Assembly (NCBI GenBank): GCA_022827345.1
Contig: JAJDTB010000066.1
Location: 1-64,000 of the forward strand
Direction of reading: 5' to 3'
DNA from: Gemmatimonadota bacterium
Lineage (GTDB): Bacteria; Gemmatimonadota; Gemmatimonadetes; Longimicrobiales; Gaopeijiaceae
DNA length: 64,000 bases
The position numbers and the translations under genes are program-made. A model generated the notes under the pieces. That model did no database searches and was not told the DNA's origin. It saw only the letters and a program-made list of their open reading frames with translations. Of this stretch, positions 1,939 through 42,554 are shown piece by piece (within the stretch, counting starts at the first letter, position 1; each line of letters opens with the position of its first letter).

Positions 1939-3692
1939 CAAAACCATCCTTTCAGCTTTCGGTCCATCGCTTGTAATGCAATGCTCTGTAGCCGCTCATG
2001 CAACAACACAATCAAGTGACTCCTGGCGCGGGACATCCCAACGTACATCAACGCCCTGTCGACATCCGAATCGAGTCTATCTACGTCACACAAGATCACC
2101 ACTGGACTCTCAAGGCCCTTGAAAGCATGAATGGTGGAGAACACTATCTCTGCTTCTTGGCCCTGCCGCGTGCCGGCGGACCTAATGTCCCTGCCTAGCA
2201 TCGAGACCACCGAGTTGGCCAAACGCCGACGAGACAGAATCACCACATCAGATTTGGACACACCGTCCTTGGCCAACGTATCCAGAATCGAGCGTAGTCT
2301 CTGCGCTTGGTGTTGTCGATTCCTCCAGTATCGATAGTCTACCGGTAGGCACTCCGAATTGTCCAGTCTGTAAGGCAATGAGTCGAACCCGGAGAGCAGG
2401 GCTGTCTCTTCACCTATCTTGTAGGTGTTTCGACAATTTCGGCTAAGCGGCGCCGTCGTATAGCGTTCTGGTTCGATGTATTGTGACAGCACTTCCTTCC
2501 AACCAAGCTCGAGACCGGAAAACAGCGCCTGCCTAGTGAAATCGCCCAGCATTGCCCACTGCCCTTCGCCCAGCCCACCTTTCATAGCTACCTCAAGAAC
2601 GCTGAGGACCGGATCCGCCATCAAGTCCTGGGCTTCGTCAACGATACACAGATCAGCTGTAACCCTCGATTCCAGTAAGGCAAGCTCTCCATACAGCGGA
2701 TAGACCTGGTTGAACAGTTGTTCGGAATCGTCCTTGGCTGCGCTCTCGGCCCGACGAAACTCCTCAGCGTTTTCGCCTTTCACAATCAAATCCCTAAGGT
2801 AGCGATGGAAACTCCCGGCAATGACAACGTTGGTGGGAAGAATCTCCGTGGCCCGGCGAGCGAGCCATTCGCCGAGAAGGCGATTGTAGCAGAGGAGAAG
2901 GATTGTTTCATAGCGCGGTGCCGCTCTTCTCGCGTATTCCAAAGCCAATAGGGTCTTGCCGGTACCGGCTGCCCCCTCGACCACGCACCGTGCGTTTCGC
3001 TCGAACAGGTCAAGTACATCGTACTGCTCCTCCGTGAGGCGGACGATCCGCTCTTCAGATCGGCGAATCGTCGTTGAGCGAGCAAGTGTGATGTCGAAGT
3101 CCGGCCTCAGATAGTTCCTCAGTCGTTTGATGTTCGTCGGGGTTGCCAGGGTAAGTTGTTGCGTCTTTTGCATGCGGCGCGCGTCATTCTTCACTGCCGC
3201 CATGATCGGGCCAGAAATCGGCCTCTGGAGAGCCTCAATGTCGATTACCTCCGGTGGATCATGCTCAGGATCACGCGGAAACCTGGTAACATCTGGAAGT
3301 ACCACCGCCGCGCCATAAACCATGGACGCGACACCAGAACCGGGGCCGAATTCCCGCTCTACAGCCCTCCGCAGGCCAAACATTCCCTCCCGGGCTTGTG
3401 CGATCGGTGATCGATTCAAGCGGTGCTCAAGCCCATGGCGATCGCGCGTGTACCAAATCCCTTCGCGGCAGCTAACTCCGCCGCCTTTCACTTCGAGGCA
3501 AATCACCCCTGCCTTCGGAATCAGGACGACGAAATCGATTTCGCCGTAGGGCTTCTTCCCCCGCCTGGCCAACCCGAGCGAGTGGAGAACAGTCCATTCC
3601 TCGGTGCGGGGATCCTCTCTTAAGCGGTCAAAGACGCGCTTCTCGGAGGGGGGTGTACCCGAATGCACCCTCGATGGGATCATTACGCTCAT
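1938..3692 (-). CDS. NERD-domain nuclease fused to a UvrD/PcrA-like SF1 helicase
   Basis: A 584-residue protein. Residues about 15-125 form a NERD domain with the E..D...EVK nuclease pattern (YGEIDFVVL, then ICLEVKGGG). An SF1 helicase core follows: Walker A EGAAGTGKTLLALE, Walker B LCIVDEAQDL, motif V IHAFKGLESPVVIL and motif VI YVGMSRARSHL. NERD-helicase fusions are common in defence islands and are expected to cut and unwind DNA. The gene starts 12 bases after the DrmE-like stop and overlaps the drmA start, so it belongs to the same operon. It is not one of the core DISARM genes, which makes its place between drmE and drmA notable. All catalytic motifs look intact. Confidence 0.8.
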   Translation of the reverse strand: MSVMIPSRVHSGTPPSEKRVFDRLREDPRTEEWTVLHSLGLARRGKKPYGEIDFVVLIPKAGVICLEVKGGGVSCREGIWYTRDRHGLEHRLNRSPIAQAREGMFGLRRAVEREFGPGSGVASMVYGAAVVLPDVTRFPRDPEHDPPEVIDIEALQRPISGPIMAAVKNDARRMQKTQQLTLATPTNIKRLRNYLRPDFDITLARSTTIRRSEERIVRLTEEQYDVLDLFERNARCVVEGAAGTGKTLLALEYARRAAPRYETILLLCYNRLLGEWLARRATEILPTNVVIAGSFHRYLRDLIVKGENAEEFRRAESAAKDDSEQLFNQVYPLYGELALLESRVTADLCIVDEAQDLMADPVLSVLEVAMKGGLGEGQWAMLGDFTRQALFSGLELGWKEVLSQYIEPERYTTAPLSRNCRNTYKIGEETALLSGFDSLPYRLDNSECLPVDYRYWRNRQHQAQRLRSILDTLAKDGVSKSDVVILSRRRLANSVVSMLGRDIRSAGTRQGQEAEIVFSTIHAFKGLESPVVILCDVDRLDSDVDRALMYVGMSRARSHLIVLLHERLQSIALQAMDRKLKGWF

Positions 3693-3704
3693 CGGATGTC
3701 GTCG

Positions 3705-8177: not shown

Positions 8178-9302
8178 TCATCCTTCGGTAGGTGACTCAA
8201 AGTCATCTTCCACGACCGGTTGTTCGTCAAGCACCGCCGGTTCACTCTCTCGGACCGCGGACACTCCCGGAGCAACTTCGGGTTCGGATCGGAAAAGTTC
8301 CCCCTGAGGCGACCCGGCGAGCGCTGGAACCGGCGATGCGTCATCGAACACGATCTCGCGAAGCTCGGATGGCGTCTTTGGTTCCCGCCATTCGCCCGCA
8401 CCGCGCGCAACCAACCCGTCAAGCCCTCGGCCTCGCTCTCCGTTTGAACGGACATACACCGGCGCATAACGAAGCTTCCCCAGTTGCTCGGTCGCGCCCG
8501 CCCACGTGCCGCCATGTCCATGATCGGAGTTCACGACCAGCGCGGCATCCGCCAGCGCATAGATCTGCTTGTTGCGTTCCATCGCCTGCCAACCGCGGAA
8601 CCGGACCGCCGGATCGAAGGATGAAACCAGCACCAGCCGCCCGTCCATGAGCGGCTCGCGATTCCCGCGGTCGAGCGCCGCGCGCTCAAGGTTATTGCCC
8701 AGCACTCCGACCGCGCGCCCGCCCGCCTCAAGGGATCCCCGCATGGCCGCCTGATCGACGCCGCGGGCCCCACCCGAGACAATCTGCACCTGCGCCTCGG
8801 CGGCCAACTGGCCTACGCGTTCCGTGTACTCCGTCAGTTCCTCATTCACCTTTCGTGAGCCGACCACCGCCAGGCCGCCACCGTCCAAAGCGGCCCGGTC
8901 ACCGCAGCCGTAGAGCACCGGCGGCGCCTTGTTCCGCATCTTCTTCCGGAGCCGATCGGGATAGTCGCCGTCCGGTCTTGTCACCACCCAGATCGCACGC
9001 GCGCTCCAACGCTCCAGGGCCTGGGCCAGAAGGAACCCTCGTTCGAGAAGTCGGCGAACATCTTCCAGGGTTCGCCTGGTCTTCAACCCGGACCAGGCGT
9101 TGTCGAGCTCCCTCACGCCCTCGGGATCAAGGAGATCCGCGGGTTGCTTTTCGGTGTCGTGAAGGTGCCGCACGAGCTTGTTGTAGTCGCCGAGCGACAG
9201 AGGCCTGACGGACGGACGCGACCTGCCCGCCAGGAGTGGCGCCGTCAGCAGCAGGATCGCCTGGGCGTTGGGGCTTATGCCGTCAATCCTCACGTCCGGC
9301 AT
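8178..9302 (-). CDS. DprA/Smf-family DNA-processing protein (accessory type)
   Basis: A 374-residue Rossmann-fold protein. SPNAQAILLLTAPLLAG begins a small N-terminal domain. The DprA core includes PPVLYGCGD, LAVVGSRKV, QIVSGGARGVDQAAMRGSLEAGG and RNKQIYALADAALVV. Housekeeping DprA loads RecA on single-stranded DNA during transformation. This subtype, with its distinctive N-terminus and acidic variable tail (SEPAVLDEQPVVEDDFES), is the kind found in accessory islands. The DNA encoding the tail (8228-8288) is repeated at 85% identity at 12671-12731, outside any gene. No partner such as a topoisomerase or RecA-like gene is adjacent. Confidence 0.75.
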   Translation of the reverse strand: MPDVRIDGISPNAQAILLLTAPLLAGRSRPSVRPLSLGDYNKLVRHLHDTEKQPADLLDPEGVRELDNAWSGLKTRRTLEDVRRLLERGFLLAQALERWSARAIWVVTRPDGDYPDRLRKKMRNKAPPVLYGCGDRAALDGGGLAVVGSRKVNEELTEYTERVGQLAAEAQVQIVSGGARGVDQAAMRGSLEAGGRAVGVLGNNLERAALDRGNREPLMDGRLVLVSSFDPAVRFRGWQAMERNKQIYALADAALVVNSDHGHGGTWAGATEQLGKLRYAPVYVRSNGERGRGLDGLVARGAGEWREPKTPSELREIVFDDASPVPALAGSPQGELFRSEPEVAPGVSAVRESEPAVLDEQPVVEDDFESPTEG

Positions 9303-28034: not shown

Positions 28035-31000
28035 ATGACTTCGAGGGGAAGGAATCACGGCGAGCCCGGCGGCCCGATCGCCTACATGGCGAGCAACAGC
28101 GTGGCCGCCAATCTTCTGATGGTCGGCATCATCGTCGCGGGCGTGGCCTCGTTCTTCGGGCTCGAGCTGGAAGCCTGGCCCACCGTGCCGTTCAACCAGG
28201 TCGAGGTCTCCGTCGCCTATCCGGGCGCCACTCCCGAGGAGGTGGAGGAGTCCATCGTCGCCAAGATCGAGGACGAGGTCGAGGGGCTGGGCGACGTGAA
28301 GGCGGTCAAGTCCGTGGCGGCCCCGGGTATGGCTTCGGTCAGGGTGGAAATGCGGTCGGGCACGGACATGAACGATGCCCTGGCCGAGGTCGAAGCGGCG
28401 GTGGGGCGCATCCAGACGTTCCCGGGCGAAGCCGAGCGGCCCCAGATCAGGGAGATGACCAACGCCCAGAGCATCATGCGCCTGGTCGTCTACGGCGATG
28501 TCCCCGAGCGGACGCTGAAGGAGCTGGCCTACCGGATCGAGGATGAACTCGCCGCACTTCCTTCCGTCTCCCAGGTGGAGACGAGCGGCGTGCGCAGCTA
28601 CGAAATCTCTATCGAAGTGCCGCTGCAGCGGCTCAGGGCGCTGGGGCTCACGCTGTCGGATGTCGCCAACACGATTCGCCGGAGTTCGCTGGACCTTTCC
28701 GCCGGCAGCATCGACACCGAGCAGTCGCAGGTGCGGGTGCGCACGCTGGGGCAGAGCTACGATCAGCAGGACTTCGAGGAGATCGTCCTGCTCAGCCGCG
28801 GGGACGGCACGGTCGTCCGGCTGGGCGACATCGCCGACGTGCGCGACGGCTTCCAGAACCTGGACCTGATCGTCCGGCACGACGGACTGCCGGCCGTCTT
28901 CGTCGAGGTATCGAGGGCCGAGGGCGAGAAGGTGATGAATGTGGCGCGCGCCGTTCGGGAGCACGTCGCCGACGAGGTCGCGCCGTCACTTCCAGACGGC
29001 GTCGGCGTCACCATCTGGAACGACGAGTCCGATGCCTTCGAGGAGCGCGCCGCGATCCTCATTAAGAACGGTCTTCTGGGGCTGTTGCTGGTGCTGCTCG
29101 CGCTGGGGCTGTTTCTCGAGCTCCGGCTCGCCTTCTGGGTAGCGGTCGGCCTCGGGGTTTCCGGCATCGGCGCCCTGGCCGCCATGATGGCGTTCGACCT
29201 CGCCATCCACGCGGTCTCCCTCTTCTCGTTCGTGCTGGCCATCGGAATCGTCGTGGACGACGCGATTGTCGTCTCCGAGTACATCCACCTGGAACGAATG
29301 CGGGGCACTCCGGGGGTCGTCGCGGCGATTCGCGGGGCCCGGCGAATCAAGGTGCCGCTGATCTTCGCGGTGCTCACCACGATCGCCGCGTTCTCTCCTC
29401 TGCTCTTCATTCCCGGAGGGATCGGAGAGATCTGGAAGGCGCTGCCGACGATCGTCATCGCGATGCTGGTGATTTCGGTGATCGAATCGCTGCTGATTCT
29501 GCCCAACCACCTCTCGCACCATCTCCACGGCCCGGACTGGGCGCCCCGAACGCGCCTGGAGCGATTCGTAGCCAGGATTCAGGGTCAGGTCGATCGGCAG
29601 CTGCGCAGGTTCGTGCAGGGTCCCCTGCACCGCGGCGTGAGTTTCGCGACGGATCGGCCCGGAGTGACGCTCTCGTCAGCCGTCGCCCTGCTCATTTTCT
29701 GCTTTGCCCTGCTGCCGGCGGGCATCGTTTCGTTCACCTTCGCCACGGAGGTCGAAGGCGATTTCGCAACGGCCACCCTGGAGATGCCGGACGGGACGAC
29801 GGCCGAGCGGACCTACGAGGTGGCGCGCGAGCTGGAGGCGGCCGGCCACCGGGTCATCGAGCGCATCTCCGCAGACAGGCCCGCCCACGCGCCGCCTCTG
29901 CTGTCGGGTGTCACGATTACCGTCGGCCAGCGGCCGCGGGTCGATGGAGGGGGACTCAGTCCCAACCTCAGCCTGAACCCGGAGCCCAACGTCGCCACCA
30001 TCGCGTTCAAGCTGCTGGACGCGCAGCACCGGCAGATTCCCACGGGAGAAGTCGTGCAGGCATGGCGCGAGGAGGTGGGCATGCCGCCCCATGTCCGCGG
30101 GATCACCATCAGCGGCACCATCTACGACCTGGGCAACCCCGTCGAGGCCGTGCTGGCCCATCCGGACCCCGAGCGCCTCCCGGGTATTGCGACCGCGGTC
30201 GTCAATGACCTGCGCGAAGTGGCGGGCGTCCACGACATACGCTCCGATCACACTCCGGGCATCCCCGAAATCCGGCTGGGATTGCTGCCCGAAGCGCGAA
30301 CCCTCGGTCTCACCCTTGAAGACCTCGCCTGGCAGACGCGGTCCGCGTTCTTCGGCGCTGAAGCCCTGCGCGTGCAGCGGGGCCGCGAAGAGGTCCGGGT
30401 TTACGTGCGGCTGCCCGAGGACCAGCGCAACTCGATCACCGACATCGAGAGCTCGCTGGTTCGGACGGCCGGCGGCGCCGAGGTCCCGGTGAGCCGGGTG
30501 GCTTCCCTGAGTTCGGGCATGTCGCCGCCCGCCATCCATCGCCAGGACGGCCAGCGTATCGTCAGGGTCACCGCGGATGTGGATCCCGCGGTGATCTCCG
30601 GCGGGCGGGCCAGCCGCATTCTGGAAGACGACATCCTCGCGGCGCTCGTCGCCGAGGATCCAGAGCTGACCTACACCTTCGGCGGCGAACAGCAGCAGCA
30701 GCTGGAGTCCATGAGCGCGCTGGGGCCCGGCTTCGGGATCGCCATGATCCTGATCTTCGCGCTGCTGGCGATCCCGCTGCGCTCCTACACCAAGCCGTTC
30801 ATCATCATGGCCGTCATCCCGTTCGGGTTGATCGGCGTGATTCTGGGCCACTGGGTCCTGGGCGTCGCGCTCAGCTCCGAGTCCTTCATCGGGGTATTCG
30901 GCCTGGCCGGGGTTGTGGTGAACGACTCACTGGTCATGATCGACTTCATCGATCAGGAACTCGAGGAAGGCCTCTCCCCGCGAGAAGCCATCATCGAGGG

Positions 31001-31271
31001 CGCCAAGGGGCGCTTCCGTCCGATCATGCTGACTTCGCTGACCACCTTCCTCGGCTTCACGCCCCTCATCCTCGAAGACGCCATTCAGGCCCAGTTCTTC
31101 GTGCCCTTCTCCGCCTCGGTCGGCTGCGGCATCCTCTTCACCACGGTCCTGCTGATGTTCCTCGTGCCGGCGCTGTCGTCGATCCACCAGCGCTGGCTTG
31201 CGCGGCGGCGGGCAAAGGCGCGTGGGCGCGCCGATGTAGGCGCCGTGATGACGGAACCGGCCTCGGCGTAG
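28035..31271 (+). CDS. RND efflux transporter (HAE1/AcrB-like), first copy
   Basis: 1078 residues with the AcrB-type layout: TM1 (SVAANLLMVGIIVAGVASFF), porter domain (WPTVPFNQVEVSVAYPGATPEEVEESI), TM2-7 with FVLAIGIVVDDAIVVSEY in TM4, second porter domain, and TM8-12 (FGLAGVVVNDSLVMIDFID). The TM4 aspartates of the proton relay are present. It is about 45-50% like the second RND protein at 34.1 kb by eye. No membrane-fusion or TolC gene adjoins it, so it either borrows partners from elsewhere or works alone. Three genes follow on the same strand, starting with ispH after about 180 bases. Confidence 0.9.
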   Translation: MTSRGRNHGEPGGPIAYMASNSVAANLLMVGIIVAGVASFFGLELEAWPTVPFNQVEVSVAYPGATPEEVEESIVAKIEDEVEGLGDVKAVKSVAAPGMASVRVEMRSGTDMNDALAEVEAAVGRIQTFPGEAERPQIREMTNAQSIMRLVVYGDVPERTLKELAYRIEDELAALPSVSQVETSGVRSYEISIEVPLQRLRALGLTLSDVANTIRRSSLDLSAGSIDTEQSQVRVRTLGQSYDQQDFEEIVLLSRGDGTVVRLGDIADVRDGFQNLDLIVRHDGLPAVFVEVSRAEGEKVMNVARAVREHVADEVAPSLPDGVGVTIWNDESDAFEERAAILIKNGLLGLLLVLLALGLFLELRLAFWVAVGLGVSGIGALAAMMAFDLAIHAVSLFSFVLAIGIVVDDAIVVSEYIHLERMRGTPGVVAAIRGARRIKVPLIFAVLTTIAAFSPLLFIPGGIGEIWKALPTIVIAMLVISVIESLLILPNHLSHHLHGPDWAPRTRLERFVARIQGQVDRQLRRFVQGPLHRGVSFATDRPGVTLSSAVALLIFCFALLPAGIVSFTFATEVEGDFATATLEMPDGTTAERTYEVARELEAAGHRVIERISADRPAHAPPLLSGVTITVGQRPRVDGGGLSPNLSLNPEPNVATIAFKLLDAQHRQIPTGEVVQAWREEVGMPPHVRGITISGTIYDLGNPVEAVLAHPDPERLPGIATAVVNDLREVAGVHDIRSDHTPGIPEIRLGLLPEARTLGLTLEDLAWQTRSAFFGAEALRVQRGREEVRVYVRLPEDQRNSITDIESSLVRTAGGAEVPVSRVASLSSGMSPPAIHRQDGQRIVRVTADVDPAVISGGRASRILEDDILAALVAEDPELTYTFGGEQQQQLESMSALGPGFGIAMILIFALLAIPLRSYTKPFIIMAVIPFGLIGVILGHWVLGVALSSESFIGVFGLAGVVVNDSLVMIDFIDQELEEGLSPREAIIEGAKGRFRPIMLTSLTTFLGFTPLILEDAIQAQFFVPFSASVGCGILFTTVLLMFLVPALSSIHQRWLARRRAKARGRADVGAVMTEPASA

Positions 31272-31455: not shown

Positions 31456-32667
31456 ATGGAGCAAACGTACTTTCGCAGGGGCTTCGGGCTGAAGAAGCAG
31501 GTCCAGCCCATCATCGACGCCGAGTACCACTCGCAGCTGGTGGATCGTATCCGGGCTCGCGGATACACCGATGTCTTCGACGACATCACGGTCCGTCTGG
31601 CGGAGGTATTCGGCTTCTGTTACGGCGTCGACCGGGCCATAGACTACGCCTACGAGACCGTGCGCAAGTTCCCCGGCAAGCGGGTGTACCTGGTCGGGGA
31701 GATCATCCACAATCCGCATGTGAACCAGCGCATGCGCGAGATGGGCATCGACTTCATCTACCCGCGCTACGACAACAGCTTCGACTTCTCGCACATCACT
31801 GCCCGCGATGTCGTCCTGATTCCTGCCTTCGGCGTTACGCAGCGAGACTTCGCTGCACTGCGGGACATCGGCTGCGTGCTGGTCGACACGACCTGCGGGT
31901 CCGTGCTCAACGTGTGGAAGCGCGTCGAGGGCTACGCGCGTGACGGCTTCACGGCCATCGTCCACGGCAAGTACACGCACGAGGAATCCCGCGCGACCGC
32001 CTCCCAGGTGACGCTGCACGAAGGCGGCAAGTACCTGATCGTGCGCGACATGGAAGAGGCGGAACTGGTGTGCGACTACATCGCCCGCCGCCCGGGGGCC
32101 CTCTCGGCGGAGGCCTTAAGGGAGCACTTCCGCGACAAGTTGACGCCCGGATTCGAACCGGAGACCGACCTCGCCAGGGTCGGCGTGGCGAATCAGACCA
32201 CCATGCTGGCGAACGAGTCGCTGGCGATCGCCGCCCGGGTGCGCGCCGCGATGGTGGACGGCCGGGGGGAGAACTACGCGCGCGAGTGCTTCCGCTCCTT
32301 CGACACCATATGTTCCGCGACCCAGAAGCGGCAGGACGCGGTGCTTGACATGATGGCCAGCCCTCCGGACATCATGATCGTCGTTGGGGGCTACAACTCA
32401 TCCAACACCAACCATCTTGCGGCCATGTGCCGGGAATACACCGCGACCTACCACATCGAGGACGCGGCCTGCATCGAAACGACCACCGGCACGATCCGTC
32501 ACAAGCCCGACCTCGATCCGGGCGCGTCCGAAGTGGTCGCAGGCGACTGGCTTCCCCCCGGGGCGTTCGAACTGGGCATCACGGCCGGAGCATCGACCCC
32601 GAACAACGAGATCGGAGAGGCGCTGGCGCGTATCCTGACCATCCGCGGCGCACTCCCGGTCGCATGA
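31456..32667 (+). CDS. ispH: 4-hydroxy-3-methylbut-2-enyl diphosphate reductase (long type)
   Basis: 403 residues from ATG 31456 (MEQTYFRRGFG); an in-frame TTG lies at 31432. It catalyses the last step of the MEP pathway, giving IPP and DMAPP. The three Fe-S cysteines are in FGFCYGVDRA, DTTCGSVLNVWKR and DTICSATQKRQDA. The length and the RRGFG leader are those of the cyanobacterial/plant-type IspH (about 400 residues) rather than the 310-residue enterobacterial form. It lies between an RND transporter and an MpaB-like oxygenase and supplies precursors for the isoprenoids that the surrounding oxygenases may modify. Confidence 0.9.
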   Translation: MEQTYFRRGFGLKKQVQPIIDAEYHSQLVDRIRARGYTDVFDDITVRLAEVFGFCYGVDRAIDYAYETVRKFPGKRVYLVGEIIHNPHVNQRMREMGIDFIYPRYDNSFDFSHITARDVVLIPAFGVTQRDFAALRDIGCVLVDTTCGSVLNVWKRVEGYARDGFTAIVHGKYTHEESRATASQVTLHEGGKYLIVRDMEEAELVCDYIARRPGALSAEALREHFRDKLTPGFEPETDLARVGVANQTTMLANESLAIAARVRAAMVDGRGENYARECFRSFDTICSATQKRQDAVLDMMASPPDIMIVVGGYNSSNTNHLAAMCREYTATYHIEDAACIETTTGTIRHKPDLDPGASEVVAGDWLPPGAFELGITAGASTPNNEIGEALARILTIRGALPVA

Positions 32668-32921: not shown

Positions 32922-34043
32922 GTGTATCCCGAGCTCGCCGACGCCTACATGCGCCATACCACCATTGGGGACCCGCTGGCGGATGCGGTCGTCGAGGACC
33001 TTGTGAAGTTCGCGCCGGACGAAGTCCACGCGATGATCGCCAAAGCGATGGACGATCCTTCGGCAGTGCTTCCAGGCGTTCCGGAATCGCTGCGCGCATT
33101 CATCGACTGGGCCAACGACGTGCCGGACTGGTACGATCGCAAGCGCGCCATGACCGCGTCCCGTGCCTTTCTGCGCAATTCCGACATCGTCCTCGCGGCC
33201 CTCGTGGGCGGGAGCATCGTGGAGGGGTTCTCGACGCTGATCAGCAAGTCCTTCCGCATTCGCGGGCGCGTGACCACTTCGGGCGTCCGCCGCCTCAAGC
33301 AGAACGGCATGCAGCTGGTCGAACAGTACCTGCCCGGAGGAATGGACCCCGGGGGCGACGGATGGAGGCTTACGCTCCGCGTTCGGCTGGTGCACGCCCA
33401 GTCCAGGTACTTTCTCGCCCGTGCGGATGAATGGAACCACGCCAAGTACGGCATGCCGATCAGCGCTGCCAACATGCTCCTGGCCGGCGCCGCCTTCTCC
33501 GGCCGGCTCATGCGGCACGTCGCGAAGCTGGGGGGTGACTTCACACAGGAGGAACGAGAGGCCTACGTGCACGTCTGGCGGTACACGGGACTGCTCATCG
33601 GCATTCCCGAGGAGATCCTCTTCCACGACCTGGCCTCGTCGTTGCGGGCGTTCGACGTCGGCGCAATGTGCGAACCACCCGCCGACTTCGACGCGATCAT
33701 CATGGCCAACAGCATCGTGAACAGCGCCCCCGTGATCATCGGCGTGAGTGAGCCGGGCAAGCGAAGGAAGATGGCCAAGGTCGTAACCCAGGCCTCCAGG
33801 GAGCTGATCGGCGACGCACTGGCCGACACCTTCCTTTTTCCCGCCCAGCGCCGCAAGGTGGTTCCGTGGATGCGGTTCCAGAACCGCAGCCGGCCGATCA
33901 TCCGGAAGATCCTGCCCCGGTGGGCGAAGAAACAGGACCTGGCACGCTTCACCGAACTCCTGAAGTTCGCGAGCCTGGACAAGATGGAATACTCGTACAA
34001 GCTCCCCACTTCGCTCTACGACGAGCACTCCTCGGACTGGTAG
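32922..34043 (+). CDS. MpaB/DUF2236-family (latex-clearing-protein-like) oxygenase
   Basis: 373 residues from GTG 32922. The same frame continues upstream for about 16 family-like residues (EIPEAYRQGYQKARE) without a standard start codon, and GAGGG sits just before an ATA, so the true start may be non-canonical. Family features: YPELADAYMRHTTIGDPLAD, IVLAALVGGSIVEGFS, RVRLVHAQSRYFLARADEWNHAKYGMPIS and YTGLLIGIPEEILF. The family includes MpaB, which cleaves farnesyl chains, and rubber oxygenases, which bind haem. A terpenoid-directed oxidation is a reasonable inference, particularly directly after ispH. It ends 13 bases before the second RND gene. Confidence 0.7.
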   Translation: MYPELADAYMRHTTIGDPLADAVVEDLVKFAPDEVHAMIAKAMDDPSAVLPGVPESLRAFIDWANDVPDWYDRKRAMTASRAFLRNSDIVLAALVGGSIVEGFSTLISKSFRIRGRVTTSGVRRLKQNGMQLVEQYLPGGMDPGGDGWRLTLRVRLVHAQSRYFLARADEWNHAKYGMPISAANMLLAGAAFSGRLMRHVAKLGGDFTQEEREAYVHVWRYTGLLIGIPEEILFHDLASSLRAFDVGAMCEPPADFDAIIMANSIVNSAPVIIGVSEPGKRRKMAKVVTQASRELIGDALADTFLFPAQRRKVVPWMRFQNRSRPIIRKILPRWAKKQDLARFTELLKFASLDKMEYSYKLPTSLYDEHSSDW

Positions 34044-34056
34044 GGAAGACCGGTTG

Positions 34057-37000
34057 ATGGCCCGCGACGCCGGAGGAGCCGATCAGCCGAACGTGACGAG
34101 CGGCCGGACCGGGCCGATCGCGTTCATGGCGCGAAACAGCGTGGCCGCCAACGTGCTCATGCTGTTTCTGATCCTCGCAGGCCTGGCGGGGGCCAGAAAC
34201 CTGGTTCAGGAGGTGCTTCCGGAGCTGTCCCTGGATCAGGTGCAGGTTCTTGTCCTGTATCCCGGGGCTACGCCAGGGGAGATCGAGGAGTCGGTCGTCC
34301 GGAGGATCGAGGAGCAGATCCGCGGGGTGGAGGGTCTCGACCGGATCGAGGCGACCGCTTCGGAGGGCTTCGGCTCCGTCATCGCGCAGTTCAAGTCGGG
34401 CACCGACATCAACGGGGCGCTCAACGAAGTCAAGGCCGAGGTCGATCGCATCATCACCTTCCCCGCGGAGGCGGAGCGACCGCAGGTGCGCGAGATCACG
34501 AGTCGCCAGAATGTGATTCGTCTTCTGGTTCACGGTGACGCACCCGAGCGCACGCTGAAGGAATTGGCCTACGCCATCGAGGAGGGCATCTCGTCCCTCC
34601 CGGAGGTGTCGCTGGCCGAAGTGAGCGGCGCGCGGAATTACGAGGTTTCCATCGAAGTGCCGCAAAGGCGGCTGAGGGCGCTGGGTCTCACGCTCGACGA
34701 CGTCGCCTCGGCGGTGCGGCAGGGCTCGATGGAGCTGTCCGCCGGCAAGATCTCAACGGGCGAGGAAGAGATCCTCGTCCGCACGCTCGGGAGGAACTAC
34801 GACCAGGAGGACTTCGAGGACATCATCGTCCTGACCCGCCCGGACGGAACGTCGATTCGCCTGCGCGAGATCGCCACCGTGCGGGACGGGTTCGCGGACA
34901 CCGATCTCAGCGTGCGCTACAACGGGCAGCGGGCGGTCGGCATCGACGTGTACCGGGCTTCGAACGAAAAAGTCCTCGAGATTGCGGCGGCCGTGCGCGA
35001 TCACCTGGAAGCCGAGGTTCTTCCCGCTCTTCCGCCGAACGTCAACGTCGATATCTGGAAGGACGACTCGGTCGAGGTCTCGGGAAGACTCGGCCTGATG
35101 ATCGAGAACGCGCTGCTGGGGCTGGCGCTCGTGCTCGTGGCCCTCACCCTGTTTCTCGAGGTCCGGCTCGCCCTGTGGGTGGCCGTGGGGTTGGCAGTCT
35201 CGTTCATCGGCACCTTCCTGTTCATGGGATTGCTCGGCGTCTCGGTCAACATGTTCTCCCTGATGGCGCTCGTCCTTGCGCTGGGTATCGTCGTGGACGA
35301 CGCGATCGTCGTGGGGGAGAGCGTCTTCTCCCAGCGGGAGCGCGGTGTGGGCGGGACTGCCGCGGCGATCCGGGGGACGCGGCGGGTCAGTGCGCCGGTC
35401 CTCTTCTCGGTGCTCACCACGGTGACGGCGTTCGCCGCGCTGCTGACCGCGCCCGGCCCCCAGGGGCAACTGGGCCGTGCCATTCCGCTGGTGGTGATCA
35501 CGGTCCTGCTGATTTCGCTGGCGGAGTCGCTCCTGGTGCTGCCGAATCACCTGTCCCACCTGCCCGCGCCCGGCGCATCCGGCGAAGGCCGGCTGTCCCG
35601 CGGGCTCCGGCGCGTGCGGCAGCGCGTCGACCTCCTCCTCAAGCGGATGGTGGACGGTCCCCTGGACCGTGGGCTGCGCCTGGCGGTCGACCGACCCGCC
35701 ATTGTGCTCGCCTCCGCCGCGGGTCTGCTGGTGGTGACGCTGGGGATCGTCAATGCGGGCGTAGTTCCCAACCAGTTCCTGACCCCCATCGAGGGCGATG
35801 TCGTCTCCGCCAACCTGGAAATGCCGGTCGGCACGCCGGGAGAGCGGACATCGGCGGTTGCGGCGCAGCTGGAAGCCGCGGGGTATCGCGCGCTGGAGCG
35901 AATCGAGCAGGAGCGCGATTCGGAGGCGCAACCCCTCGAGGTCGGCGTCGCCGTGACGATCGGCAGGCCGGCGGCGCTCTACGACCCTCTGGGCGGCAAT
36001 GCCGTCGAGGCGGCTCGCGGACACATCGGGGCGGTCCAGTTCAAGCTCATCGGCTGGGAACGGCACGACATCGCGGCCTCCACCTTCGAGCGGCTGTGGC
36101 GGGAAGAGGCCGGAGTCCTGCCGGATGCCAGGTCACTGACGATTTCCTCGAACCTGATCACGCTCGGGCTGCCGGTCCACTTCGAACTCTCGCATCCGGA
36201 CCCCGACCGGCTGGCCGTGATCGCGGGCGAATTCGTCACCGAACTGAACGGTATCGACGGCGCCTTCGACGTGCGCAGCAACCTCGACGAGGGGTTCAGG
36301 GAACTGCAGCTGGAGCTGAAACCGGCGGCCCGAACGCTCAATCTGAGCGTCGGCCATTTCGCGTCCCAGGTGCGCGCGGCCTTCTTCGGAGCCGAAGCGC
36401 TCAGGGTGCAGCGCGGGCGCGAGGACGTGGGGGTCTACGTGCGCCTGCCCGAGGACGAGCGCAACTCCGCGGCCGATGTCGAGGGCTACCTGGTGCGCAC
36501 TCCCGGTGGCGAGGTCCCGCTGGGGCAGGTGGCAGCGGCCGGATTCGCAAGGTCCGCGGCCACCATCCACCGGATGGACGGCCGCCGCGCCGTTACGGTC
36601 ACCGCCGACGTGGACCCGGTGATCTCGACGGGCGGGCAGGTCAATCGAACCCTCGATGACGGTATTCTGGAGCGCCTGTCCGCCGAGGACAGCCAGTTCG
36701 AGTACTCCGTCGGCGGCGAACGAAAGCAGATGGAGGAGGCCAATGCCGATCTCGGCCGGTCGCTCTTCCTGGCCCTGCTCGTCATGTACGCACTCATGGC
36801 CATTCCCTTCGGTTCCTACCTACAGCCCCTGATCATTCTGGCCGCGGTCCCGTTGGGGATGGTCGGCGCCGTGGCCGGGCACATGTTTCTCGGCCTGAGC
36901 CTGGGCATCTGGTCACTGTACGGGCTGATCGGCGTCAGCGGCGTAGTCGTCAACGACTCGCTGATGATGATCAAGTTCGTCAACGACCTCCGGGCGTCGG

Positions 37001-37251
37001 GGCTCCCGGCCCGAGAGGCGATCATCAAGGGCGCGAAGGACCGCTTCCGGCCCATCCTGCTGACCTCCGTCACCACCTTCGCCGGTGTCGCCCCGCTGGT
37101 CTTCGAGACCAGCACCCACGCGCAGCACCTCGTCCCGCTGGCGGCGTCCGTGGGGTTCGGAATCCTGATCGCCACCGCGCTCCTCATGCTGGTGGTGCCG
37201 GCGCTCCTGGCGGTTCAGTCCATGATCGCGGCAAGGGGCGCCGCCGCCTGA
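34057..37251 (+). CDS. RND efflux transporter (HAE1/AcrB-like), second copy
   Basis: 1064 residues from ATG 34057, with TTG 34054 possible. The layout is the same as the first copy: SVAANVLMLFLILAGLAGA (TM1), LYPGATPGEIEESVVRRIE, ALVLALGIVVDDAIVVGES (TM4 aspartates) and YGLIGVSGVVVNDSLMMIKFV (TM10). It is 13 bases after the DUF2236 oxygenase and thus probably co-transcribed with it and ispH. Again there is no periplasmic adaptor or outer-membrane channel. It converges with the P450 operon; the stop codons are about 20 bases apart. Confidence 0.9.
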   Translation: MARDAGGADQPNVTSGRTGPIAFMARNSVAANVLMLFLILAGLAGARNLVQEVLPELSLDQVQVLVLYPGATPGEIEESVVRRIEEQIRGVEGLDRIEATASEGFGSVIAQFKSGTDINGALNEVKAEVDRIITFPAEAERPQVREITSRQNVIRLLVHGDAPERTLKELAYAIEEGISSLPEVSLAEVSGARNYEVSIEVPQRRLRALGLTLDDVASAVRQGSMELSAGKISTGEEEILVRTLGRNYDQEDFEDIIVLTRPDGTSIRLREIATVRDGFADTDLSVRYNGQRAVGIDVYRASNEKVLEIAAAVRDHLEAEVLPALPPNVNVDIWKDDSVEVSGRLGLMIENALLGLALVLVALTLFLEVRLALWVAVGLAVSFIGTFLFMGLLGVSVNMFSLMALVLALGIVVDDAIVVGESVFSQRERGVGGTAAAIRGTRRVSAPVLFSVLTTVTAFAALLTAPGPQGQLGRAIPLVVITVLLISLAESLLVLPNHLSHLPAPGASGEGRLSRGLRRVRQRVDLLLKRMVDGPLDRGLRLAVDRPAIVLASAAGLLVVTLGIVNAGVVPNQFLTPIEGDVVSANLEMPVGTPGERTSAVAAQLEAAGYRALERIEQERDSEAQPLEVGVAVTIGRPAALYDPLGGNAVEAARGHIGAVQFKLIGWERHDIAASTFERLWREEAGVLPDARSLTISSNLITLGLPVHFELSHPDPDRLAVIAGEFVTELNGIDGAFDVRSNLDEGFRELQLELKPAARTLNLSVGHFASQVRAAFFGAEALRVQRGREDVGVYVRLPEDERNSAADVEGYLVRTPGGEVPLGQVAAAGFARSAATIHRMDGRRAVTVTADVDPVISTGGQVNRTLDDGILERLSAEDSQFEYSVGGERKQMEEANADLGRSLFLALLVMYALMAIPFGSYLQPLIILAAVPLGMVGAVAGHMFLGLSLGIWSLYGLIGVSGVVVNDSLMMIKFVNDLRASGLPAREAIIKGAKDRFRPILLTSVTTFAGVAPLVFETSTHAQHLVPLAASVGFGILIATALLMLVVPALLAVQSMIAARGAAA

Positions 37252-37269: not shown

Positions 37270-39282
37270 TCAGCCCGACGCGGGCCGCAGCGGATGCCGG
37301 TGCCCGGTCACCTGAAATTTGAAGTTCTTCGCGGGGCTCACCTTGGGCAGCGGACTCACTTTCAGTTCATAGTCCCGGGGCACCAGCTCCAGATCCAGGT
37401 GACGGGCAAGCAGCAGTACGTTGGCCGCCAGTTGCAACTTCGACCAGCCCGACCCACCGCAGACATGCGTCCCAATGCCGAATGGCACGTAGGCCCCGGT
37501 CTGTCTGTGCTCGTTGCGCGGCTCCGCGTAGCGGTCGATATCGAACCTGTCCGGTTCCGCGAAGTACTCGTCCATGTAGTGCGTAGCGGAATAGGCGACC
37601 ATGCAGGTGCTGTAGGCCGGTACCTCAATGCCCTGGACCTCGAAGGTATTCATGGCCGTGCGCAGGTGCACCGGTATGACCGGGTGCTTTCGCAGCACTT
37701 CCATGGTAAAACGGCGCGTGGCATCGATCGCCGTCGGATCAAGGTCCACCGCAGTCGGATCCCCGCCATCGAACAGCGCGTCCGCCTCGGCCGTGATCTG
37801 CTCCCGATAGTGCGGGTGTTTCAGCAGTTCGTAGATGGCGAACGCCATCGCGCTTCCCAGATAGTGGCCTGCGATGATCGGGGCGATGAACGCGAATCCC
37901 AGATCGGTCTCGGGAAGGAACTGGGGATCGGCCTGGTGCAGCTCCATCAGATCATCCACCAGGTCCCGGCGCTTGCCCTCCCGCTGCCCCGGTGTGTGGG
38001 TCGCGTGGACCTGGGCGTACAACTCCAGCACACGGTTCTTGTATCGCTTCATCTTCGGCGTGCGGAGCATGAACTTGGGCAGCACGCCCATCACATGCAC
38101 AAGCAGCGCCCTGTACTCGAATTTCAGCAGGTCATCGAGTATGTCCGAAGGTTCGATGCTCACGCTGAGATGGGCGATCTGTTCACCGATCAGTCTCTGG
38201 CAGGCCATTTCGCCCGCGACGACGTCTCCGACTCCCCAACCGCGGAAAGAGCCTCGGCCGAACGCGAACAGCTCATGCAGCCGGTCCTTGACCACCGCGC
38301 GGGAATTGCCGGCACGCACGGCCCTGCGCATGCGGAAGTGATCCGCGCCGTCCAGGCTGGCGATGGACCGTGCCGTGCCCCACTCCGTCTGAAAGTCCTC
38401 CAGATAGTCGCGCGTCCTCAGGTACAGGCGGCCCTTCTTGGCGACCCATTGGTTACTTTCGACTCCCGACAACACCACCGAGTGGCGTCCCGGAGTCTTG
38501 AGCTTGAAGACCGGCCCGAGCTCCTTGTTCTTTTCCGCGATAAACTTCGGCAGGTTGCCGGCTCGGAACGACTTCGACGAGAGGAGATCCCACAAACCCA
38601 CCTCGGGCATGGGGCGGCGCCTCGTGGCACGCATGCTCTTGGGGGGCCGGTATGACGTGCGCACGGCCGTCGCGATGGCCCTTGCGATCATATCGATCCC
38701 GCTGTAAAGCTCGATCAGACCCTCGGCTTCTTCGTACTCGTCTGGCTCCAGCATGGCGCGGAAGCCGTCACAGTAGTGAACGAGTCCGATGATGGCGACG
38801 TCGCGGGGCTCCGGAATCTCACCGTCGAATAGGGTGCGAAAGATCCGGCCCTTGATCTCCACGCCGGCCCTGCCGTCCACCAGAGGGTATCGGCCGGTGC
38901 GCGCGACCTTTTTGGACAGGGTCCAGAACCCGCCATCGTCGGACTCGAAGATGCCCATACTGACCAGACGGGCGACCGCCTCGTCGCTGATCGCATCCGC
39001 CCCCCTGGCGACGCGTTCGACCCAGTACTGCGGAGTATGTACCGTGCCGGTGTTGTCGCATCGCACGATGTCCTCGAGCGTGGGATCCAGCAGATTGTCC
39101 CCCGTGGGCGTCGGGTCGGTCAGAAAGAGCTTCTCGAGGTCGGAATCGATCCGGTCCTCGAGGGACAGTTCCAGCAGGACGCTGCCCGCCAGCGCACACG
39201 ACATCCTCCACTCGGGGATCGGCACGAAATAGCCCGAGTCATCGCTGTGCAACAAGAGGAGCAGTTCTTCGGGGAATCTCAT
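37270..39282 (-). CDS. GPP34 (GOLPH3-like) domain fused to cytochrome P450, copy 1
   Basis: 670 residues from ATG 39282; the longer frame to 39804 runs over the upstream gene in the wrong frame. Residues about 3-215 form a GPP34 domain (LPEELLLLLHSDD, MSCALAGSVLLELSLEDRI, TGDNLLDPTLEDI, DVAIIGLVHYCDGF). Residues about 255-655 are a P450: ExxR at E528 (EVLRKHP), and FGIGTHVCGG with haem ligand C608. In the I helix the expected (A/G)Gx(D/E)T is AGHYLG (471-476), so the acid-alcohol pair is replaced by Tyr-Leu. GPP34 proteins bind anionic membrane lipid headgroups. It is the third gene of the Rieske-P450-P450 operon; the paralogue starts 104 bases upstream. Confidence 0.85.
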   Translation of the reverse strand: MRFPEELLLLLHSDDSGYFVPIPEWRMSCALAGSVLLELSLEDRIDSDLEKLFLTDPTPTGDNLLDPTLEDIVRCDNTGTVHTPQYWVERVARGADAISDEAVARLVSMGIFESDDGGFWTLSKKVARTGRYPLVDGRAGVEIKGRIFRTLFDGEIPEPRDVAIIGLVHYCDGFRAMLEPDEYEEAEGLIELYSGIDMIARAIATAVRTSYRPPKSMRATRRRPMPEVGLWDLLSSKSFRAGNLPKFIAEKNKELGPVFKLKTPGRHSVVLSGVESNQWVAKKGRLYLRTRDYLEDFQTEWGTARSIASLDGADHFRMRRAVRAGNSRAVVKDRLHELFAFGRGSFRGWGVGDVVAGEMACQRLIGEQIAHLSVSIEPSDILDDLLKFEYRALLVHVMGVLPKFMLRTPKMKRYKNRVLELYAQVHATHTPGQREGKRRDLVDDLMELHQADPQFLPETDLGFAFIAPIIAGHYLGSAMAFAIYELLKHPHYREQITAEADALFDGGDPTAVDLDPTAIDATRRFTMEVLRKHPVIPVHLRTAMNTFEVQGIEVPAYSTCMVAYSATHYMDEYFAEPDRFDIDRYAEPRNEHRQTGAYVPFGIGTHVCGGSGWSKLQLAANVLLLARHLDLELVPRDYELKVSPLPKVSPAKNFKFQVTGHRHPLRPASG

Positions 39283-39386
39283 TCCATGTACCTTGGCCGT
39301 ACCGCAGCTGTCAACCAGCCCGCCGTCCCAAAGAAAATAGCCCCTTGACACCCCGGCAGGAACCGTGGCTCGTTCGCATCCAGGTG

Positions 39387-41414
39387 TCAGACCAGCACCT
39401 CGCGCAACTGCTTCGCCACTCGGAAGTGCAGCTTCTTGCTTGGCTTCATCGACGGGAACGGGCTGAACCGGTGCTTGTAGTTCTTCGGCGCAACCTCGAG
39501 CGTGAAGTAGTGTGCGATCATCAGAACGTTGACCATCAGCTGCAGCTCCATCCACCGGAAGCCGAGGCACCGGTGCGTGCCCAGCCCGTACGGCGCGTAC
39601 CCGGGACCGCGGTGCTCGTAGCGCGGCGGCAGATAGCGGTCGATATCGAATTTGAAGGGATCCGGGAAGACATCCTCCATGTAGTGCGGCGCCGTCTGGA
39701 CAAGAACCAGCCGCGCGCCAACGGGCAGTTCGCAGCCCTCCACCACGCACGAGTTCATCACGTTTCGCATGGAAGCCGGTACGATCGGATACATGCGCAG
39801 GCACTCGGTAATGAAGCGGTGGGTGACGTCCACCGCGGCCGGGGTGAAGGCGTCGCCGTCGGGATCGCCGTCGGCGAACAGGGCATCGGCTTCACTGCGG
39901 ATCCTGGTGTAGTACTCGGGCTGCGACGCCATTGCGTACAGCACCAGGCTGAATGCGTCACCGAGATACACGCTGGCGATCAGCGCCGCCGACAGGGCGA
40001 AACGCAAATTGGTCTCCGGCACCAGCGCAGGATCACTCTCATTGAGACTGAACAGATCATCCGCGAGATCCCGCGGGCAGCCGGCCCGCTGCGCGGGTGT
40101 ATGAACGCTCTGAACACGCGCGAGGAGCGTGTCGATGGCCTTCGCGGTGCGCTTCATCGCCGGGGTCTTCAGTGCGAATCCCGGCAGGAGTTTAATGATA
40201 TGGACGATGAGCGCCCGTTCCTTGAACGCCATCAGGTCATCGAAGATATCCTGCGAATCGACGCTGACGGAGAGCGGTGAGATCTGACCGTTGATCATTC
40301 CCCGGCACATGGATCGTGCCTGGAAGGAATCGCCGACCTTCCAACCGGACATGAATTCGCGGGCATAACGGTAGATGTCATCCACCTGGCCTTGCAGCCT
40401 CCTGCGCGAGTACGCCGGCGCCAGGGCCTTACGAAGTCGGAAGTGGTCGGCGCCGTCCAGCGCAGGCAGGACCCCGGACGCACCGTAGACCCTTTCGAAG
40501 TCGGCAAAGTAGTCTCTTGCCCTGAGATACATGCGCCCGTGCCGGTTGGCCCAGTGGTTGACCTCCGGTCCGGCGAGGTAGATCATGGGCTCCCCGACCT
40601 GCATCGGTAGCCTGTACACGGGACCGTATTTGCCCGCCAGCCCGGCAAAGAGCGCGGGAAGGTTGCCGTCGCGCACGTGGGGACTGCGCAGCAGGTCACG
40701 CAACTTGACGGACGGAATCCGCTTGGTCAGGCGGGAGTGCCGGAGCATGGGCGCGGTGGCGTTGTGCACGACCGCCTCGGCAATCGAACGGCCGATGAGA
40801 TCCATCTTGCAGATGAACTCGATGCGATCCTCGGCCTCTTCATCGAGCTTGAACATGAACCGAAAGACGTCGCAGGTGTTGACGAGGCAAATGATGATGA
40901 CGTCTCTCGGACCGGGAATCGAGTCGGTCAGGATCAGGTTGCCGATGCGCGTCTTGGTGAATTGGCCGGCGGTGGCTTCCTCGGGTCTGCCGTACGGATC
41001 CGGCCGCCAGGCGCTGCGTGCCAGCGTCCAGAACTCGCCGTCGTGGTATTCCAGGACCTCCAGCTCCACCAGGCGGTCCAGGGTCTTGTCGATGACGGAC
41101 TCCGCGCGGAGAGCGAACCGTTCGATCCAGTACCGGGCGTTCCGTTGGCGTGGCTCCTTCGCGATCTCTTCCAGAAAGGGATCGAGGCAGGGGTCGCCCG
41201 TCTCGGAATCGTCGACGACGAAGAGCGATTCCAGGTCGGTGTCGATGCGCGACATGAGAGAGAGCTCCGCGAGGACGGCGCCGATCACGGCGCAGTTCAA
41301 CCGCCAGCCGGGAACCTGGTGGAAGTAGCCGTTCTCCTCATTGAGGAGCATAAGGATGAGCTCTTCCGGCAGCGTCAGCGTCTGCGTAGTCGGAGCTTGT
41401 GTGGCAACAGCCAT
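39387..41414 (-). CDS. GPP34 (GOLPH3-like) domain fused to cytochrome P450, copy 2
   Basis: 675 residues. GPP34 domain at about 15-225 (LPEELILMLLNEENGYF, LNCAVIGAVLAELSLMSRI, TGDPCLDPFLEEI, DVIIICLVNTCDVFRF). P450 domain at about 265-660: ExxR at E537 (ECLRMYP) and YGLGTHRCLG with haem ligand C616. The I-helix motif aligns with copy 1 without gaps and reads ASVYLG (480-485), again lacking the acid-alcohol pair. The two paralogues are clearly related over their full length but diverged, so the fusion predates the duplication. The start is 30 bases after the Rieske stop. Redox partners are not encoded here. Confidence 0.85.
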   Translation of the reverse strand: MAVATQAPTTQTLTLPEELILMLLNEENGYFHQVPGWRLNCAVIGAVLAELSLMSRIDTDLESLFVVDDSETGDPCLDPFLEEIAKEPRQRNARYWIERFALRAESVIDKTLDRLVELEVLEYHDGEFWTLARSAWRPDPYGRPEEATAGQFTKTRIGNLILTDSIPGPRDVIIICLVNTCDVFRFMFKLDEEAEDRIEFICKMDLIGRSIAEAVVHNATAPMLRHSRLTKRIPSVKLRDLLRSPHVRDGNLPALFAGLAGKYGPVYRLPMQVGEPMIYLAGPEVNHWANRHGRMYLRARDYFADFERVYGASGVLPALDGADHFRLRKALAPAYSRRRLQGQVDDIYRYAREFMSGWKVGDSFQARSMCRGMINGQISPLSVSVDSQDIFDDLMAFKERALIVHIIKLLPGFALKTPAMKRTAKAIDTLLARVQSVHTPAQRAGCPRDLADDLFSLNESDPALVPETNLRFALSAALIASVYLGDAFSLVLYAMASQPEYYTRIRSEADALFADGDPDGDAFTPAAVDVTHRFITECLRMYPIVPASMRNVMNSCVVEGCELPVGARLVLVQTAPHYMEDVFPDPFKFDIDRYLPPRYEHRGPGYAPYGLGTHRCLGFRWMELQLMVNVLMIAHYFTLEVAPKNYKHRFSPFPSMKPSKKLHFRVAKQLREVLV

Positions 41415-41444
41415 TGCTATGTCCTTCCAGCGATCTCGCTCCGT

Positions 41445-42554
41445 TTACCCGCCGCCGGACACACGGTCCACCGGAGTCAGGGCGAGGCGCCGCGCCCCTC
41501 CGGCCGTCTTCCCCCGCAACTCCGGATAGAACTGCCGACAATACAGGCGATACTTGCCAATCGGGCCGTCGGCCCGGGAGAGCCGGGGCGGGACCTTGTA
41601 CCGCTTGCGGTGCCAGATGACTACATCCTGCTGGACGAACCGCCTCTCCTCCGACAGGAAAAAGCGTGACAACAGCCTGTGGCGCAGCGGCACGGGCAGG
41701 AATCCAAGGCCTGCGAAGAATCGCCCCGGCCTGCGGATTTCCCGCACCTGGGTAGCCAGCGTCAGTTCCAGCTGCATTTCGGCCACTGGGGTCGCGAGGA
41801 CCCACATTCTCGCGTCCATGCCGACCGTCTTTTCGTGGATTTCGACGAATGAGAACCCCAACCCGTGAACGTGGGTGTCGACCGAGATATCGGAGTGGAT
41901 GTTGATCACACGCGCGATCCTGCGGACGTTCTTGAAATCGAAGCAACTCTTCAGGTAGGCACCGTCGATTGTGACAGGTGCGGTCGGTTCGACGTCGTGA
42001 TACCCGTGCGTATAGCCCAGGTGCTCCAGGTCCACGGAGTTTTCCGTGGTTTCCTGCGGATGGCCCCGGAACCGCAGCGTCGTGGAACGCAGGCTGCTCC
42101 AGTCCGTGCCGGTGGGCGGTTCCTCAGGAAGGTGCCACTGCGGTGCGCGGCCGCCGCTTCCATACCAGGCGAAGACCATCCCGAGGATCTCGGTGGTCTC
42201 GTAGACCTCCAGCTTCGCGGCTCTCGGAGCGGGTGCATGGGGAGCGACGACACACTGCCCGGTCGCGTCGAACTGGAAACCATGGAATGGACACACCAGG
42301 CAGCCATCGCGCACCATGCCCCCGACAGTCGGTCCCAGGTGTGATCCCAGGTGCGGGCAGTACGCGCCGGCCACGCAGATGCGACCCTGATCGTCGCACC
42401 AGGCGATGATGTCCTGGCCCATCCAGGTCTTCTCGATCAGCCTCTTGTCGAGAAGGGTCTTGCGATCCGTGACGAAGTACCAGCCCTCGGGGAAGGGCGG
42501 CAACTCTTCGAACTGACTGGATGGTCGTTCCCTGGTCCTGGTGATCATAGTCAT
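41445..42554 (-). CDS. Rieske non-haem iron oxygenase, sterol-type (KshA/Neverland/DAF-36-like)
   Basis: 369 residues from ATG 42554, with GAGGGG about seven bases upstream. Rieske cluster ligands C66, H68 (YCPHLGSHLG), C88 and H91 (CPFHGFQFD). The catalytic iron's facial triad lies in ENSVDLEHLGYTHGYH: D175 bridging residue, H178 and H183. The pattern matches sterol or steroid monooxygenases (3-ketosteroid 9-alpha-hydroxylase, cholesterol 7-desaturase) rather than aromatic-ring dioxygenases, and no beta subunit is present. It is the first gene of the operon with the two GPP34-P450 genes. Product and reductase are unknown. Confidence 0.8.
   Translation of the reverse strand: MTMITRTRERPSSQFEELPPFPEGWYFVTDRKTLLDKRLIEKTWMGQDIIAWCDDQGRICVAGAYCPHLGSHLGPTVGGMVRDGCLVCPFHGFQFDATGQCVVAPHAPAPRAAKLEVYETTEILGMVFAWYGSGGRAPQWHLPEEPPTGTDWSSLRSTTLRFRGHPQETTENSVDLEHLGYTHGYHDVEPTAPVTIDGAYLKSCFDFKNVRRIARVINIHSDISVDTHVHGLGFSFVEIHEKTVGMDARMWVLATPVAEMQLELTLATQVREIRRPGRFFAGLGFLPVPLRHRLLSRFFLSEERRFVQQDVVIWHRKRYKVPPRLSRADGPIGKYRLYCRQFYPELRGKTAGGARRLALTPVDRVSGGG

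Follow-up and report, generated by a model that had tools for sequence, protein, structure and literature searches.

What would a bacterium do with an operon in which a Rieske oxygenase is followed by two cytochrome P450s, each carrying at its N terminus a GPP34 domain, the lipid-trafficking fold of a Golgi-type membrane-lipid protein? The question is raised by positions 37270 to 42554 of the window, the 64,000-nucleotide stretch of a Gemmatimonadota genome (GCA_022827345.1, contig JAJDTB010000066.1) analyzed here. We give a probability of roughly 0.6 to the reading that this operon is one part of a sterol-tailoring cassette that has spread horizontally among sponge-associated bacteria. Because the fusion is found again next to sterol-modifying genes in about ten phyla of apparent symbionts of marine sponges, the cassette is probably a shared toolkit that makes or remodels sponge sterols.

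The operon lies on the minus strand. Its first gene encodes a Rieske oxygenase of the KshA_C type (41445..42554; PF00355, 1.9e-14; PF19298, 1.6e-20), and its stop is separated by 30 bp from fusion A (39387..41414, 675 amino acids), in which Pfam recognized GPP34 (7.5e-30; residues 15 to 216, 40767..41372) and P450 (2.5e-31; residues 249 to 658, 39441..40670, with the heme ligand Cys616 and E537xxR540). After another 104 bp comes fusion B (37270..39282, 670 amino acids), which is 43% identical to A and again combines GPP34 (PF05719, 1.7e-28; residues 4 to 187, 38722..39273) with P450 (2.6e-33). All Pfam matches of the three proteins exceeded the curated cut-offs. The mechanical open reading frame of fusion B (37270-39804) would place its start at 39804; this start was rejected, and ATG 39282 is the likely one, because homology begins only there. 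A scan for promoters and terminators was uninformative, with no terminator-like sites and promoters near chance level.

The fusion is neither a chance product nor an assembly artifact, since its frame is open over the full length, it is kept in most genomes of the genus and in ten phyla, and copies lie on single-contig chromosomes of 2.6 to 4.5 Mb (L105, L106, L130, and L174). Within the genus, 18 of 22 relatives besides the window genome carried an A-type fusion (2 cut by contig ends), with 49 to 85% identity. An earlier note on this DNA had staked its proposal on conservation of the operon in related genomes, and these relatives, together with those in ten phyla, bear it out. Across the phylum, 45 of 395 Gemmatimonadota genomes (6 of 138 genera) had a fusion at E <= 1e-70, the C-type fusions described below included; in Nitrospirota, 8 of 246 genomes had one. 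Named genomes yielded 478 fusion relatives, and the best 80, which were 60 to 83% identical and nearly full length, came from metagenome-assembled genomes (MAGs) of ten phyla: Gemmatimonadota, Latescibacterota, Nitrospirota, Chloroflexota, Alpha- and Gammaproteobacteria, Binatota, Acidobacteriota, Actinomycetota, Myxococcota/Deltaproteobacteria, and Bdellovibrionota. The fusion tree grouped only partially by phylum, with 15 label changes against a minimum of 9 and with Latescibacterota and Pseudomonadota split, which is consistent with, though not proof of, transfer between phyla.

Many of these genomes bear names (MPM, SB06, RHO, COS, IRC, APA, jk18, p16, OX, and Plut) that we take to belong to sponge MAG series or could not place. 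Isolate 277c originates from Petrosia ficiformis (PMC8941161), the only sponge origin confirmed in text, and Palauibacter species include sponge-derived ones (PMC10469786), which implies a sponge origin for Palauibacter rhopaloidicola. Those names that could be traced were of sponge MAGs. Sponges would thus be the source of the cassette genomes, and restriction of the fusion to sponges is likely.

Neighboring genes were counted in the 79 readable loci of the best 80 named relatives. A Rieske oxygenase was found in 54, a gene resembling sterol methyltransferase (SMT) in 47, a flavin adenine dinucleotide (FAD) oxidase in 41, and any RND or MMPL transporter in 61; at least one of these four was present in 77 loci, and at least two of the three enzymes were present in 52. 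The cassette SMT genes bear Sterol_MT_C (4e-15 to 1e-23), and the FAD oxidase has a mean column identity of 83% across phyla. An MMPL/HAE3 transporter with a sterol-sensing domain occurred in 30 loci (in the 825-amino-acid transporter of the HAE3 family, the domain scored 7e-13) and a second MMPL, often with a LolA-like gene, in 14; otherwise the transporter was an AcrB-type RND. ERG4/ERG24 was present in 5 of the fusion loci, and in locus L042 the fusion adjoins a 329-amino-acid short-chain dehydrogenase/reductase (SDR) that is SdmB-like (7.3e-58).

In five Nitrospirota loci (L108, L112, L135, L140, and L155), sterol genes stand only a few kilobases from the fusion: a squalene epoxidase-oxidosqualene cyclase (SE-OSC) fusion, a CYP51-like P450, ERG24 (E values down to 1.1e-73), a second Rieske oxygenase (VanA_C), an SDR, and a canonical SMT, the full set being absent from some of these 18-kb loci. 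Oxidosqualene cyclase, CYP51, and ERG24 were seen beside the fusion in Nitrospirota loci; the window and most loci lack this arrangement. Elsewhere in the window genome, an SE-OSC fusion of 1,125 amino acids with a DCTAE motif was found (L090:6262-9639, contig C75), its score of 673 bits against the cyclase model TIGR03463 being under that model's cut-off of 851, and an SMT with YEYGWG, a FAD oxidase (81%), and an ERG24-like gene lie each on other contigs. The canonical SMT there stands beside a fused sulfate adenylyltransferase/adenosine phosphosulfate kinase and a gene of the PAPS_reduct family, CysD type (L089:8287-12043, contig C67). The earlier note had proposed modification of a lipid or isoprenoid together with the Rieske enzyme; the SMT, ERG24, SE-OSC, CYP51, SdmB-like, and sterol-sensing-domain transporter genes near the fusions uphold this proposal and point specifically to a sterol.

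The P450 part itself speaks partly for and partly against a sterol cassette. The AlphaFold2 model of fusion A, built with 49 sequences (pLDDT, 84.4; pTM, 0.74), was nearest in its P450 part to CYP46A1, the cholesterol 24-hydroxylase (Z score, 35.4), CYP170A1 (34.7), and CYP51 (34.5). The nearness to the sterol P450s CYP46A1 and CYP51 favors a sterol, but neighbors within 1 Z count as ties and many nonsterol P450s come next; in the sequence-profile comparison, CYP51s were the closest proteins of known structure (7.7e-48). The heme motif was present in 113 of 114 fusions, the exception (L039) being cut by a contig end, and the heme loop [FYS]GxG[TN][HR]xCxG and ExxR were kept in all intact fusions; E537, R540, and C616 were invariant among 49 aligned fusions. 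The I-helix reads IASVYLGDAF in fusion A, which lacks the acid-alcohol pair, and IAGHYLGSAM in fusion B. About 98 A-type and 3 B-type fusions have ASV-YLGD or close variants there, one residue shorter and without the pair, so that Y-x-G-[D/S] replaces the acid-alcohol motif in the alignment of about 100 fusions; B-type relatives were found in G030 and L158. In contrast, C-type fusions of the same genus, about 30% identical to A, retain DTT or HT, and the neighboring CYP51-like P450s read AGQHTS. As the A and B fusions lost the acid-alcohol pair, ordinary hydroxylation by them is uncertain, and this lineage may do something other than textbook hydroxylation. The fusions might serve as scaffolds or sensors for sterol or heme, or catalyze isomerization, dehydration, or peroxygenation. 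Such a role, compatible with a sterol cassette, would fit the one-residue deletion, the C-type contrast, and the retained heme cysteine and ExxR, and we regard it as a serious possibility, though not the favored one: strong constraint acts on the heme ligand and on ExxR, and some true P450 monooxygenases lack the acid-alcohol pair. The C-type fusions (L045 to L057) form a second, distinct lineage, which in some loci adjoins acyltransferase or sulfotransferase genes.

Further points against a sterol cassette concern the partners. The window genome has its FAD oxidase and SMT on contigs other than that of the operon, and a cassette-type SMT was not found there. Region I of the cassette SMT reads MVxGWG rather than YEYGWG (Sterol_MT_C, 4.2e-15), and the PDB entries closest to it are methyltransferases of other small molecules. 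The phyletic pattern in 59 relatives speaks for the cassette, as the fusion co-occurs with the Rieske gene as 20/1/1/37 and with the FAD oxidase as 17/4/2/36, but the Fisher values (1.5e-13 and 3e-9, respectively) are merely descriptive because related genomes are not independent. In a family search that covered 50 loci, 25 of 49 named carrier genomes had no SQHop cyclase match, gaps in MAGs being possible, and this removes the direct biosynthetic context there. Long-frame cyclases like the SE-OSC of the window genome, of the MsbE type, were present in about 12 of the 49, and among 24 genomes (the window genome, 22 of the same genus, and G033), SQHop cyclases were found in 3 (G000, G009, and G033).

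These gaps bear on the proposal that the same enzymes tailor a nonsterol isoprenoid or lipid, such as a hopanoid, a meroterpenoid, or a branched lipid. Half of the carriers lack a cyclase and many others have only a high-scoring hopene-type one; the NCBIfam models closest to the P450 parts describe terpene oxidases, each with a score that falls far short of its cut-off; and in its profile the FAD oxidase resembles LkcE (3e-29) and, less strongly, the putative aminooxidase 2b9w (1e-10), presumably a fatty-acid isomerase. However, Sterol_MT_C, the sterol-sensing domain, ERG24, and the Nitrospirota sterol operon beside the fusion all argue against it, and we consider a nonsterol substrate unlikely. 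For a sterol cassette, the absence of a cyclase from about half of the carriers makes exogenous sterol a likely substrate, external supply being the simplest reading for the carriers without a cyclase.

The Rieske enzyme raises the alternative that sterols are degraded instead. Its metal sites are complete, as the earlier note had stated, with a CPHLG...CPFH motif and the triad ENSVDLEHLGYTH, and with its Rieske and KshA_C domains it is a KshA-type oxygenase by sequence, with putative 9alpha-hydroxylase activity; the best PDB match of the family profile was KshA (8.5e-34). The Rieske enzyme and the P450s could accordingly initiate degradation of cholesterol from the host as a carbon source, in the manner of 9,10-seco degraders, and steroid degraders are enriched in sponges, with one cluster of KshA homologues found only in sponge MAGs (Holert 2018, PMC5790920). 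Yet the model TIGR03213 for HsaC-type extradiol dioxygenases, a marker of 9,10-seco degradation, had no match in the window genome or in 22 other genomes of the genus, which makes catabolism less likely, and the neighbors (SMT, ERG24, SE-OSC, and CYP51) are biosynthetic. We judge catabolism improbable, somewhat more so than a nonsterol substrate. A known parallel is the SdmA/SdmB system of Methylococcus, a Rieske protein and an SDR that act on sterols in C-4 demethylation, although the Rieske protein here is of the KshA_C type and reached only 37 bits against the SdmA cut-off of 600.

The GPP34 domain predicted in the earlier note was confirmed by profile: the N-terminal 200 or so residues of A and B scored 104.9 and 100.5 bits, respectively, against a cut-off of 29.1. 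Since P450 matches filled the fold-search list of the whole fusion, the domain of A was folded separately (pLDDT, 85.5; pTM, 0.84), and this predicted structure also supports the assignment, matching GOLPH3 and Vps74 at Z scores of 16.5 to 20.1, with the next unrelated fold at 4.9. The best match was GOLPH3 chain 9qpq_B (Z, 20.1; 195 residues; root mean square deviation, 2.5). The domain thus appears to share the GOLPH3/Vps74 fold, but here it is joined to a P450, and W81 and R90 of GOLPH3 are not kept. In GOLPH3, we take W81, R90, R171, and R174 to bind phosphatidylinositol 4-phosphate (PI4P). In the profile alignment, which gave no position for R171 and R174, W81 faces V and R90 faces V or I in the fusions. 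This lends no support to a PI4P site like that of eukaryotes and weakens the case for docking to an anionic headgroup in that manner, as the earlier note had suggested. No described bacterial role for GPP34 was found in the open-access literature; the fusion now ties this domain to a probable bacterial lipid-modifying enzyme. In the same genus, there are also stand-alone GPP34 proteins, about 38 to 48% identical to the fusion domain and single or in tandem (L059 and L099 to L103), whose genes often adjoin FAD oxidoreductase genes.

We propose that sterol would reach the inner membrane either self-made, by a carrier's own SE-OSC, or, in carriers without a cyclase, from the sponge or other symbionts. 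The GPP34 domain, as a membrane-surface or lipid-binding module, would hold the P450 domain at the bilayer. The SMT-like enzyme would alkylate the sterol side chain; oxidation, desaturation, or isomerization of the side chain or rings would fall to the P450, the KshA-type Rieske enzyme, and the FAD oxidase. The RND/MMPL transporter may then deliver the product to the outer membrane or export it from the cell. Its counterpart could be BstA, the RND-type sterol transporter of Methylococcus, although the cassette transporter scores 35 bits compared to 1,400 for BstA.

Sterol clusters of sponge symbionts have already been published. Clusters of steroid genes (CSG) were described from Ircinia symbionts of ten phyla and attributed to horizontal gene transfer (Kelly et al. 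2022, PMC9531527). As here, symbiont sterol genes extend over many phyla, gene and species trees disagree, and an SMT often adjoins; however, the CSG consists of ERG24-CYP51-LSS, and no GPP34-P450, FAD oxidase, or RND was found in the text of that paper. In Nitrospirota, the fusion cassette sits next to a CSG-like operon, but it mostly occurs without an oxidosqualene cyclase. The msb locus of a Melophlus gammaproteobacterium (PMC7074536) has in common a squalene epoxidase-sterol cyclase fusion (the bifunctional MsbE, whose type the window genome's SE-OSC shares), a lanosterol demethylase, a sterol reductase, an SMT, a Rieske protein, and an NAD(P) oxidoreductase, with no reported GPP34 fusion. 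Symbiont SMTs methylate sterol side chains in vitro (Brown et al. 2023, PMC10070321); the cassette SMT differs from them in its MVxGWG region I, and the fusion and its partners go unmentioned there. In the open-access literature, we found no description of a GPP34-P450 fusion or of this cassette, and no paper that connects GPP34 to P450s of bacteria or to symbionts of sponges. Two findings go beyond the first description of the operon: the fusions have lost the acid-alcohol pair of the I-helix, and they are spread over phyla of apparent sponge symbionts.

The msb cluster has been proposed to make sarasinosides (PMC7074536), and the cassette might likewise belong to a defensive secondary-metabolite pathway whose products could be, for instance, sponge steroids with sulfate or sugar groups. 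The window genome's SMT adjoins genes for synthesis of phosphoadenosine phosphosulfate (PAPS), and a sulfotransferase gene follows one C-type fusion (L045). Nevertheless, no glycosyl- or sulfotransferase family recurred among the examined neighbors of A-type fusions, and a distribution over ten phyla suggests a core trait more than a specialized product, which leaves this explanation the least probable of those considered. In the same genome, locus L060 (contig C13) brings together two ordinary P450s, an MPAB/Lcp oxygenase, an RND transporter, a 3beta-hydroxysteroid dehydrogenase-like SDR, a sulfotransferase, and PAPS-synthesis genes, possibly a cluster for a sulfated isoprenoid or steroid.

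Unusual sponge sterols serve as molecular fossils, and 24-isopropylcholestane is read as the oldest animal fossil. Whether sponges or bacteria make such sterols, for example, the 24-isopropylcholestane precursors, is an open question, and a small, conserved cassette built around a distinctive fusion, common to many symbiont phyla and often cyclase-free, offers a direct way to test it. More speculatively, and with the odds against it, this would be a previously unrecognized mobile cassette that defines the sponge-symbiont niche over ten phyla, rebuilds sterols of host or neighbors by means of a GPP34-anchored P450 with nonclassical heme chemistry, and could supply unusual sponge-sterol side chains.

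The surroundings of the operon belong to the cassette only in part. An AcrB-type RND gene (28035..31271, plus strand), 6 kb beyond fusion B, is the probable cassette transporter, as the RNDs adjoining fusion A in relatives match it best (71 to 88% identity). A second AcrB-type RND (34054..37251, plus strand; PF00873, 2.4e-153) is convergent with the operon, the stops lying 18 bp apart, and its tie to the cassette is uncertain. Only the Rieske gene and both fusions are codirectional; this RND and the adjacent MPAB/Lcp (DUF2236) oxygenase-like gene (32922..34043; PF09995, 1.1e-16) are both on the plus strand and convergent with the operon. The earlier note had proposed a check of whether Rieske and DUF2236 genes co-occur with the fusion; DUF2236, near only 3 of 79 fusions, was rejected as a regular partner. 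Between the first RND and DUF2236 lies LytB/IspH (31456-32667, plus strand), an enzyme of isoprenoid precursor synthesis. At the low-GC left edge (103-6245, minus strand), a DISARM-like island encodes a DrmA-like protein (4.4e-70), a NERD-UvrD helicase (3.6e-33), and a weakly DrmE-like protein, and at 8178-9302 (minus strand) there is a PsyrA-like protein (7.8e-114), a defense component of the PsyrTA/ShosTA type.

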